A stretch of 64,000 nucleotides of DNA from Pseudomonas sp. p1(2021b) (lineage in GTDB: Bacteria > Pseudomonadota > Gammaproteobacteria > Pseudomonadales > Pseudomonadaceae), in the NCBI RefSeq assembly GCF_020151015.1, contig NZ_CP083746.1, positions 4,121,001 to 4,185,000 of the forward strand, read 5' to 3'. Shown in pieces: positions 26,394 through 29,199 of the stretch (the first letter of the stretch is position 1; each line of letters starts with the position of its first letter). Below the pieces are notes generated by a model, which was not told where the DNA came from, searched no databases, and saw only the letters and a program-made list of their open reading frames with translations. The position numbers and the translations under genes were made by a program.

Positions 26394-26885
26394 TCAGTTG
26401 ATATGCAAGCGTCGGCGCAGGTCGCGCAGGGCGAAACTGATCCAGGGCCAGAGCAAGGCACTGATCACTGCCGACCAGACCAGCGCCAGCGTTGGCAGGC
26501 GGTTGCCGGTCAGGGCGCTAAGCCACAGCTGGATCAACTGGGCGATACCGAAGATCACCAGGATCACCAGGCTCTGCTGCCACATCGGATACATGCGCAG
26601 GCGCTGTTGCAGGGACAGCACCAGGAAGGTGATCAAGGTCAGTACCAGGGCGTTTTGCCCAAGTAGCGTGCCGTACAGGACGTCTTCGGCCAGACCCAGG
26701 ACGAAAGCGGTGGTCATGCCGACCTTGTTGGGCACCGCGAGGGTCCAGAAGGATACCAGCATCGCCAGCCACATAGGGCGGAACACTTCCATGAACTGGG
26801 GCATCGGCGAGACGCTGAGCAACAGGCCGATCGCGAAGGTCAGCCAGATGGCCCAGCCGTTCTTGCTGCGGGAACGCGCCATCAT
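26394..26885 (-). CDS. mreD: Rod shape-determining protein MreD
   Basis: A 163-residue inner-membrane protein with about five hydrophobic helices, part of the elongasome. Conserved segment RPMWLAMLVSFWTLAVPNKVGMTTAFVLGLAEDVLYGTLLG is recognisable in its pieces. Its first codon overlaps the mreC stop by 4 nt. It acts with MreC, RodA, PBP2 and MreB in lateral wall growth. Confidence 0.93.
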   Translation of the reverse strand: MMARSRSKNGWAIWLTFAIGLLLSVSPMPQFMEVFRPMWLAMLVSFWTLAVPNKVGMTTAFVLGLAEDVLYGTLLGQNALVLTLITFLVLSLQQRLRMYPMWQQSLVILVIFGIAQLIQLWLSALTGNRLPTLALVWSAVISALLWPWISFALRDLRRRLHIN

Positions 26886-27967
26886 TCTCTCCGGGGTGGG
26901 TTCGGGGCCGCAGGGGCCGATGCCGGGCTGGCAGGTGCCGCCGCAGGCGCCACGGGCGCGGTGGGAGCAGGTGCGGCAGCAGGCGCCGCAGGTACAGGCG
27001 TTGCCGGTGCAGCGCCAGGTGCAGCGGGCGCCGGCGCGGGCGCGGTCTGCCCGTTTCCACCGGTGGCCTGGCCTTGTTCCGGTGCGCCCTTGCGGTCGGC
27101 CTCTTCCTGGGCGAGTGCAGCGTCCGTGGCCCGCTCCTCTGGCGTACGCCGGTCGCTGAACACCAGCAGCATGTAGCGGCTGCGGTTGAGCGCGGCCGTG
27201 GGAATGGCACGGACGATGGCGAACGGCTGGCCGGAGTCGTGGATCACTTCGTTGACCGTGGCCACTGGGTAACCCGCCGGGAAACGCTGGCCCATACCGG
27301 AGCTGACCAGCAGGTCACCTTCCTTGATGTCGGCGGTATCCGCCACATGGCGCAGCTCCAGGCGCTCCGGGTTGCCGGTGCCGCTGGCGATGGCGCGCAG
27401 GCCGTTACGGTTGACCTGCACCGGGATGCTGTGGGTGGTGTCGGTCAGCAGCAACACCCGGGCGGTGTAAGGCATCAGCTCCACCACCTGCCCCATCAGG
27501 CCCCGGGCGTCGAGCACCGGCTGGCCGAGGAACACGCCGTCGCGCTCGCCCTTGTTGATCAGGATGCGGTGGGTGAACGGGTTGGGGTCGACGCCGATGA
27601 GTTCGGCCACTTCGACCTTCTCGTTGACCAGCGCCGAGGAATTGAGCAGCTCGCGCAGCCGCACGTTCTGCTCGGTCAGGGCCGCCAGCTTCTGCAGGCG
27701 CCCCTGCAGCAGCAGGGCTTCGGTCTTGAGTTTCTCGTTTTCCGCGATCAGCTCGGTACGGCTGCCGAACTGGCTGGCCACACCCTGCCACAGGCGCTGC
27801 GGCAGGTCGGTGATCCAATAGGACTCCATCAGCACCAGCCCCATCTGGCTGCGCACGGGCTTGAGCACGGCGAAACGCGAGTCGACCACCATCAGCGCGA
27901 CCGACAGCACCACCAGTACCAGGAGACGAACGCCCAGCGAAGGGCCCTTGGAGAAAAGCGGTTTAAT
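26882..27967 (-). CDS. mreC: Rod shape-determining protein MreC, apparent ATT start
   Basis: A periplasmic elongasome protein anchored by one N-terminal helix. The conserved N-terminus IKPLFSKGPSLGVRLLVLV is encoded, but the only plausible first codon is ATT at 27967-27965, preceded by GAGGAA at a 6-nt gap; the frame upstream holds no ATG, GTG or TTG before a stop. From ATT the protein has 361 residues. The first usable canonical codon, GTG 27913, would delete 18 residues and part of the membrane anchor. A coiled coil spans about 80-115 and two beta domains follow. The C-terminal 60 residues are almost only Ala and Pro. The stop overlaps mreD by 4 nt. Confidence 0.85.
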   Translation of the reverse strand: MKPLFSKGPSLGVRLLVLVVLSVALMVVDSRFAVLKPVRSQMGLVLMESYWITDLPQRLWQGVASQFGSRTELIAENEKLKTEALLLQGRLQKLAALTEQNVRLRELLNSSALVNEKVEVAELIGVDPNPFTHRILINKGERDGVFLGQPVLDARGLMGQVVELMPYTARVLLLTDTTHSIPVQVNRNGLRAIASGTGNPERLELRHVADTADIKEGDLLVSSGMGQRFPAGYPVATVNEVIHDSGQPFAIVRAIPTAALNRSRYMLLVFSDRRTPEERATDAALAQEEADRKGAPEQGQATGGNGQTAPAPAPAAPGAAPATPVPAAPAAAPAPTAPVAPAAAPASPASAPAAPNPPRRE

Positions 27968-28077
27968 GGGCCGTTCCTCGTGGACGACGATTCAGGAGGT
28001 CATTGGACATGAAGCAATGCACCGGCCTGCTTGCGGGTTGACGGAAACGGCGCCCGGACGGACGCCAGCCCAGCGCA

Positions 28078-28140
28078 TACAGGTAGCACTGTGTGCGCTA
28101 CCTGTAAACCGGGGCGAACACCATCCATGCAGGCATGGAT
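28078..28140 (-). promoter_or_regulatory. Two hairpins in the mreB-mreC gap
   Basis: TACAGGTAGC at 28078-28087 is a perfect inverted repeat of 28097-28106, and ATCCATGC at 28123-28130 is inverted at 28133-28140. Neither is followed by a T-run on the minus strand. They lie in the 182-nt gap between mreB and mreC and could reduce read-through or protect mreB mRNA. Confidence 0.5.
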
Positions 28141-28149
28141 GGCGCAGGA

Positions 28150-29199
<1,050 letters not shown>

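Follow-up and report, generated by a model that had tools for sequence, protein, structure and literature searches.

The mreC locus and its start codon

We analysed a 64,000-nt stretch of the genome of Pseudomonas sp. p1(2021b) (contig NZ_CP083746.1, positions 4,121,001 to 4,185,000), called the window in what follows. On its minus strand mreB, mreC and mreD stand in a consecutive row, and our subject is the start of mreC, which appears to be an ATT codon. We use the term ‘standard codon’ for ATG, GTG and TTG, and AUH for AUU, AUC or AUA. The features needed first are the following, in window coordinates:

28150..29187, minus strand: mreB, with an ATG start (ATG in 81/81 Pseudomonas loci).
27994-27992, minus strand: TGA, the stop that precedes mreC in its own frame, read from the sequence.
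27974..27979, minus strand: Shine-Dalgarno (SD) motif GAGGAA, 6 nt 5′ of ATT; an SD-like motif is present in 80/80 named relatives.
27965..27967, minus strand: putative mreC initiation codon ATT; ATT in 80/80 kept named relatives, AUH in 216/284 loci of the class.
27911..27913, minus strand: GTG, the first standard codon in the mreC frame, not conserved as a start codon and probably not the start.
26882..27967, minus strand: mreC, 361 codons counted from ATT plus the stop; NCBIfam TIGR00219; coding constraint begins at ATT.
26394..26885, minus strand: mreD, whose ATG overlaps the mreC stop.

The mreC product is recognized as MreC by NCBIfam TIGR00219 with 224 bits (cut-off 93). Downstream of the TGA its frame reads ATC GTC GTC CAC GAG GAA CGG CCC ATT(27967) AAA CCG CTT TTC, with no ATG, GTG or TTG in the interval from stop to ATT, and GTG 27913 is codon 19, within the membrane anchor. 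The possible starts in this frame are ATT 27967 or else sites within the conserved N-terminus. The initial annotation had put ATT 27967 in frame with that N-terminus and GAGGAA 6 nt ahead of it, and had noted that no standard codon lies back to the upstream stop and that the first one falls in the anchor; all of this was borne out.

Conservation of the ATT codon among relatives

The named relatives are the best 80 of 390 matches in named records, 79 of them labelled Pseudomonas and one Pantoea. When their mreC 5′ ends were aligned, a check that the initial annotation had proposed, all 80 carried ATT at the mreC start codon behind an in-frame upstream stop; none had ATG in that column, which would have pointed to a sequencing error in the window. 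From stop to ATT, 77 of the 80 are free of standard codons and three (L039, L043 and L078) are not. Because all 80 kept relatives share it, the ATT is neither chance nor a sequencing slip; with these counts, both a sequencing error and an upstream standard start were rejected. The one Pantoea record (L035, labelled Pantoea sp. Ap-967) has a Pseudomonas-type mreC, and its label is probably wrong.

The triplets ATT AAA CCG are invariant in 81/81 sequences (the 80 relatives and the window); internal isoleucine codons in the 80 mreC genes number 687 ATC, 191 ATT and 5 ATA. Across the 81 sequences codons 1-3 do not vary at all, third positions vary from codon 4 onwards with the amino acids nearly fixed, and upstream of the SD variation falls on all three codon positions. 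In Escherichia coli K-12 mreC (ATG AAG CCA ATT TTT) it is ATG that stands in the column aligned with ATT. As far as sequence goes, AUU is thus supported as the initiation codon of mreC.

A start further downstream (GTG 27913 or some other codon within or close to the membrane anchor) would agree with gene predictions, in which 35 of 120 listed database proteins begin after KPLF. The codons ahead of GTG 27913 are, however, under amino-acid constraint, and the E. coli start aligns with ATT; codon 19 encodes V in 45, A in 27, T in 8 and F in one of the 81 sequences and is no conserved start. We regard this alternative, which the initial annotation had named, as very improbable.

A mini open reading frame (ORF), ATG ACC TCC TGA (27992-28003), lies in the mreC frame and ends at the stop ahead of mreC, and similar ones are found in many putida-type loci. 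Readthrough of its UGA (27994-27992) from ATG 28003 (MTS-stop) would provide mreC with a normal ATG start, and the stretch that follows is indeed open in the mreC frame. But the upstream stop and the sequence before it differ between groups, and the fluorescens-type loci have no such arrangement, and we give readthrough almost no credence.

At the other end of the gene, the C-terminal tail of MreC (26885-27080) is rich in proline and alanine, and its alignable length varies among relatives.

Distribution of AUH starts across the class

Pfam PF04085 served to locate mreC in genomes sampled at the levels of genus, family, order, class and phylum, and the 5′ regions were then read. The class was taken as Gammaproteobacteria, from the window being Pseudomonas. 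Loci were read in 56/57, 84/85, 93/106 and 52/99 matched genomes (four overlapping sets) which, with seven further class members and E. coli, makes 284 loci. In six loci we fixed the position of the motif by hand (one unchanged), and six with a truncated or doubtful motif were assigned to the category ‘unresolved’.

In 184/284 class loci (AUU 97, AUC 72, AUA 15) the aligned codon is AUH and the frame holds no standard codon between it and the upstream in-frame stop, which lies a median of 8 codons away. AUH is accompanied by an upstream standard codon in 32 more, giving 216/284 with AUH in total. The aligned column holds a standard codon in 32/284 (ATG 27, GTG 3, TTG 2) and another residue, with a standard codon nearby, in 27/284; 9/284 are ‘unresolved’. 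All 105 Pseudomonadaceae loci have AUH. With that family excluded, the remaining 179 loci comprise 97 with AUH only, 14 with AUH and an upstream standard codon, 32 standard, 27 with another residue and 9 ‘unresolved’. Judged by the majority of loci read, AUH is the state of 81 of 139 families, a standard codon that of 46, three are mixed and nine ‘unresolved’, 107 of the 139 being represented by a single locus; for the 43 families of the window's order the figures are 30, 9, 3 and 1. The AUH locus L128, taken as a representative, has its nearest genus-named proteins in Thiohalobacter and Thiohalomonas.

By their sequences, then, AUU, AUC and AUA appear as a common mreC start in Gammaproteobacteria. 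The initial annotation had presented a rare start codon in a single gene copy; the AUU is there, but it is no single-copy oddity, AUH being the majority state in 81 families.

All 33 mreC loci read outside the class (33 of 57 matched genomes) have a standard codon after the stop and ahead of the first hydrophobic stretch. As a control within the class, mreB has a standard start at the aligned place (26) or within three codons of it (4) in 30/30 loci, and infC, the positive control, has no standard codon within the scanned stretch in 17/30. mreD was tried as a start control and rejected in favour of mreB: a standard codon was there in 124 of 158 loci and missing in 33, one more having a short frame, and ten displayed frames of the ‘none’ kind were not MreD-like.

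Two side observations concern annotation. In L277, L280, L282, L283 and L293 a GTG lies in the mreC frame upstream of the SD and is likely to be an annotation trap; L282 is nearest to Ectopseudomonas hydrolytica. In the infC of the window's own genome (L349) the frame reads M-T-I-K, with an ATG two codons ahead of the likely ATT start.

Shine-Dalgarno strength and the start codon

The mean SD energy of mreC loci with an ATG start is -3.5 kcal/mol (n=27); background windows give -3.1, and AUH-start loci average -7.3 kcal/mol outside (n=97) and -7.7 inside (n=87) the Pseudomonadaceae. Taking one locus per family (23 ATG versus 82 AUH), the contrast has a p of 2.4e-7. The SD is weak in 20/27 ATG-start loci, E. 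coli among them. It is as if a strong SD with a weak codon and a weak SD with ATG were two interchangeable ways of holding translation down, a reading for which the contrast has the right direction but is not proof. The pattern would agree with control by IF3 and with MreC being low relative to MreB, the role that the initial annotation had suggested.

AUU may instead be the start without regulatory meaning, a weak codon that is tolerated under a strong SD and drifts among AUU, AUC and AUA. The third base does change often, at least 37 times among the 109 AUH rows of our tree, and AUH and standard starts swap repeatedly, with at least 33 changes among 167 rows (42-54 with shuffled labels), gain and loss not being told apart by the tree. 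Yet ATG is one point mutation away, and AUH is nonetheless the majority in 81/139 families and universal in the 105 Pseudomonadaceae loci; ATG-type loci, moreover, are mostly without a strong SD. We consider such drift unlikely, though the strongest of the competing accounts.

A leader ORF overlapping the AUU

The initial annotation identified the AUU start but overlooked a leader ORF whose stop overlaps it. Two features belong to it:

27963..28010, minus strand: leader ORF from ATG to TAA, MSNDLLNRRPRGTAH; the TAA at 27965-27963 shares T27965 with ATT; present in 78/81 loci.
28021..28028, minus strand: conserved octamer AGGCCGGT, located 11-18 nt ahead of the leader ATG, each base being found in 86-113/120 loci.

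The leader runs in the -1 frame from ATG 28010 to TAA 27963. As the ATT is followed by AA, a TAA arises in that frame (AUUAA). In 78/81 ATT-type Pseudomonas loci an ATG-started ORF of 13-25 codons ends on the overlapping TAA. A leader of at least 6 codons is present in 45/45 ATT-type loci of the genus sample, the window locus included, compared with 13.5 +/- 3.1 in dinucleotide shuffles, which ignore relatedness. The leader frame is open across its last 39 nt in 63/64 distinct sequences; the other two frames are open in 15 and 23.

Phase was recounted with a frame-blind anchor, an ATG at a set distance of 18 nt from the octamer's start. This ATG is present in 107/125 loci; 106 of these 107 have it in the leader phase, at 37, 40, 43, 46 or 58 nt from ATT; in the remaining 18/125 the octamer is absent or the spacing different. 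An earlier phase count, 117/120, had allowed a choice among up to three ATGs. The octamer itself lies too far upstream to serve as the SD of the leader.

The peptide is not kept. Distinct codon variants in the leader body number 14 synonymous and 101 nonsynonymous, and the peptides vary by group (MNKENICLGGAAY, MNNCQLKFDPTIACLGGAAY and MNSRAFRPCGARGAGH). Since an open, in-phase leader is retained through changes of length and its peptide is not, the comparison suggests termination-reinitiation at the AUU. If coupling matters, the third base of the start would be held at T in the ATT-type loci, as it always is there, though ATC is the commoner isoleucine codon.

The same layout, in which the frames of leader and mreC come together at the stop with the SD immediately upstream, might also serve a +1 frameshift at UAU/CAU-UAA-A that yields a leader-MreC fusion. 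It resembles prfB, where an SD stands just upstream of the frameshift site. Such a leader is nevertheless absent from most AUH loci outside ATT-type Pseudomonas, re-pairing of the P-site tRNA in +1 would by our reasoning be poor, and the leader peptide is not conserved. We hold frameshifting to be improbable.

Among loci of other types, an overlapping ATG-started ORF is found in 10/27 ATG-start loci (6.3 +/- 1.8 in shuffles). The ATC/ATA-type Pseudomonas loci L151, L175, L279 and L294, which have no leader, have in common a different upstream stretch, CTTGCAGCTTTTTG-like.

Hairpins in the mreB-mreC gap

The initial annotation had described two leader hairpins ahead of mreC:

28118..28145, minus strand: first hairpin after mreB, GCGCCATCCATGC/GCATGGATGGTGT; the window alone has it as the best hairpin of its gap, with a similar one in L044.
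28078..28106, minus strand: hairpin after mreB, TACAGGTAGC...GCTACCTGTA; arms in 79/81 loci, with compensatory changes.

Both are present in the window, but only the second is conserved; the first is not general. The conserved hairpin lies 14-43 nt after the mreB stop across loci and shows compensatory changes, T-A to C-G and A-T to G-C among them; its outermost pairs are sometimes unformed, and the search expression that yielded the count presupposes part of the inner stem. In E. coli (L081) the mreB-mreC gap folds into a strong hairpin of -26 kcal/mol. Because no terminator-like site (a hairpin followed by a U-run) was found within 27900-28300, the conserved hairpin is likelier to be an mRNA stabilizer or a processing site at the 3′ end of mreB than a terminator. 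A search of Rfam gave a single weak match below the gathering score, which we took as chance.

Over the 81 loci the mean unpaired fraction of the mreC SD is 0.17 and that of the mreB SD 0.63, but the fold of the window is unremarkable, with a z of -1.4, and across the class no clear difference emerges. Sequestration of the SD as a class-wide rule is unsupported, with a mean unpaired SD of 0.40 in ATG loci and of 0.29 and 0.38 in AUH loci. In loci of the fluorescens and syringae types the predicted fold leaves the AUU within a loop.

Comparison with known systems

infC has been described as a rare example of an AUH start (PMC5472188), and in Xanthomonas its ATT start was inferred from peptides (PMC5559785). 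Like mreC, infC, with an AUU or AUC start and IF3 autoregulation, has an AUH start that recurs in many families, as the 17 of 30 class loci given above illustrate. Its product is IF3 itself, hence a feedback loop, whereas mreC would be a target only and in Pseudomonas has in addition the overlapping leader ORF.

In E. coli pcnB an AUU start limits the translation of an ordinary gene, as it may do in mreC; we know of no leader ORF at pcnB.

sigR of Streptomyces resembles mreC in using a non-standard start as translational control and in being misannotated in databases; it differs in its GTC start, repressed by IF3, in belonging to another phylum and in encoding a stress sigma factor (PMC5472188).

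For the leader there are two parallels in layout. In iraD of E. coli a short leader ORF ends on a stop that overlaps the iraD start codon, and the SD is sequestered, but control is by CsrA, and no AUH start is described in the abstract (PMC5574718). In cbrX-cbrA of Pseudomonas putida an upstream ORF likewise overlaps the gene and it is translation that counts, not the peptide; the overlap there is 17 nt and cbrA has no recognizable SD (PMC6591292), while mreC combines a strong SD with AUU.

An AUH start of mreC was not found among the matches listed for the open-access literature, the scope of the search (subscription papers and preprints lie outside it), and MreC does not occur in the main text of TRAINSPOTTER (PMC13245402). 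Termination-reinitiation directly on AUU was likewise not among the examples found in the open-access literature. Within that scope, mreC is a new gene for the AUH-start kind, and new in Pseudomonas is a leader ORF with its stop overlapping the AUU.

Proposed control of mreC translation

The best explanation, to which we give a probability of about 0.7, is that mreC is initiated at AUU and kept at a low, adjustable rate of synthesis by a codon that IF3 discriminates against together with a strong SD, with coupling to the leader in the window's lineage. Its outline can be read from the sequences: where the start lies and that it recurs, how SD strength contrasts between families, and the leader ORF with its conserved phase.

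Initiation would occur at AUU 27967. IF3 represses starts other than ATG, GTG and TTG (PMC5472188, PMC2268962), and excess IF3 reduces non-canonical starts (PMC2268962); mreC output would therefore be low and sensitive to IF3. AUH would be kept as an IF3-discriminated codon and upheld by the strong SD, and the result would be a low, adjustable rate of MreC synthesis downstream of mreB. In the window's lineage ribosomes would, in addition, translate the 15-codon leader across the SD region of mreC and halt at UAA. There, having the SD within reach and the AUU one nt from its P site, the terminating ribosome would re-initiate on AUU. We infer this re-initiation from the leader as the most likely addition in that lineage, and the dependence on IF3 and the low MreC yield are drawn by the same kind of reasoning.

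Several observations weigh against this explanation. Standard starts occur in 59/284 loci and 46/139 families. The SD is strong in 7/27 ATG loci and weak in some AUH loci, and the trade-off between SD and codon is not significant on the joint MreB+MreC tree, where 9 independent pairs (an MreC-only FastTree gave 3 usable pairs) fall on average 4.8 in the expected direction, 0.3 in the opposite one and 3.9 with no difference (median p 0.125). The leader is found in 0/9 ATC/ATA-type Pseudomonas and 1/51 other Pseudomonadaceae, is missing in three named loci that retain ATT (L002, L014 and L030), and has a weak SD of its own (mean -4.3 kcal/mol). In other AUH families overlapping ATG-started ORFs are not above the level of shuffles (ATT 8/52 versus 14.1, ATC 3/45 versus 4.2, ATA 5/13 versus 3.6), and for that reason termination-reinitiation was rejected as a class-wide cause.

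A wider form of the explanation can be put forward tentatively, and we lean somewhat against it. mreC may be IF3-gated through much of Gammaproteobacteria, so that the elongation machinery would be tied to initiation-factor supply and growth state; ATG lineages would imitate this through a weak SD, and the Pseudomonas leader would add termination-reinitiation on AUU.

Annotation and significance

Database entries for MreC are inconsistent at the N-terminus because gene finders limited to ATG, GTG and TTG trim the conserved N-terminal tail. Of the 120 database proteins listed, 67 open with M and then KPLF or similar, and 18 begin further upstream and contain IKPLF, the other 35 being those that start after KPLF. 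The 67 fit an AUH codon read as methionine, and such entries already use the AUH position tacitly.

To our knowledge, few genes have AUH starts. A core cell-shape gene with AUH in 81 of 139 sampled families would serve as a wide-ranging natural experiment on why bacteria employ starts that IF3 discriminates against, and the leader ORF offers a small, readily altered system for re-initiation on a non-AUG codon. An AUH-started mreC would link the fidelity of translation initiation to rod shape.
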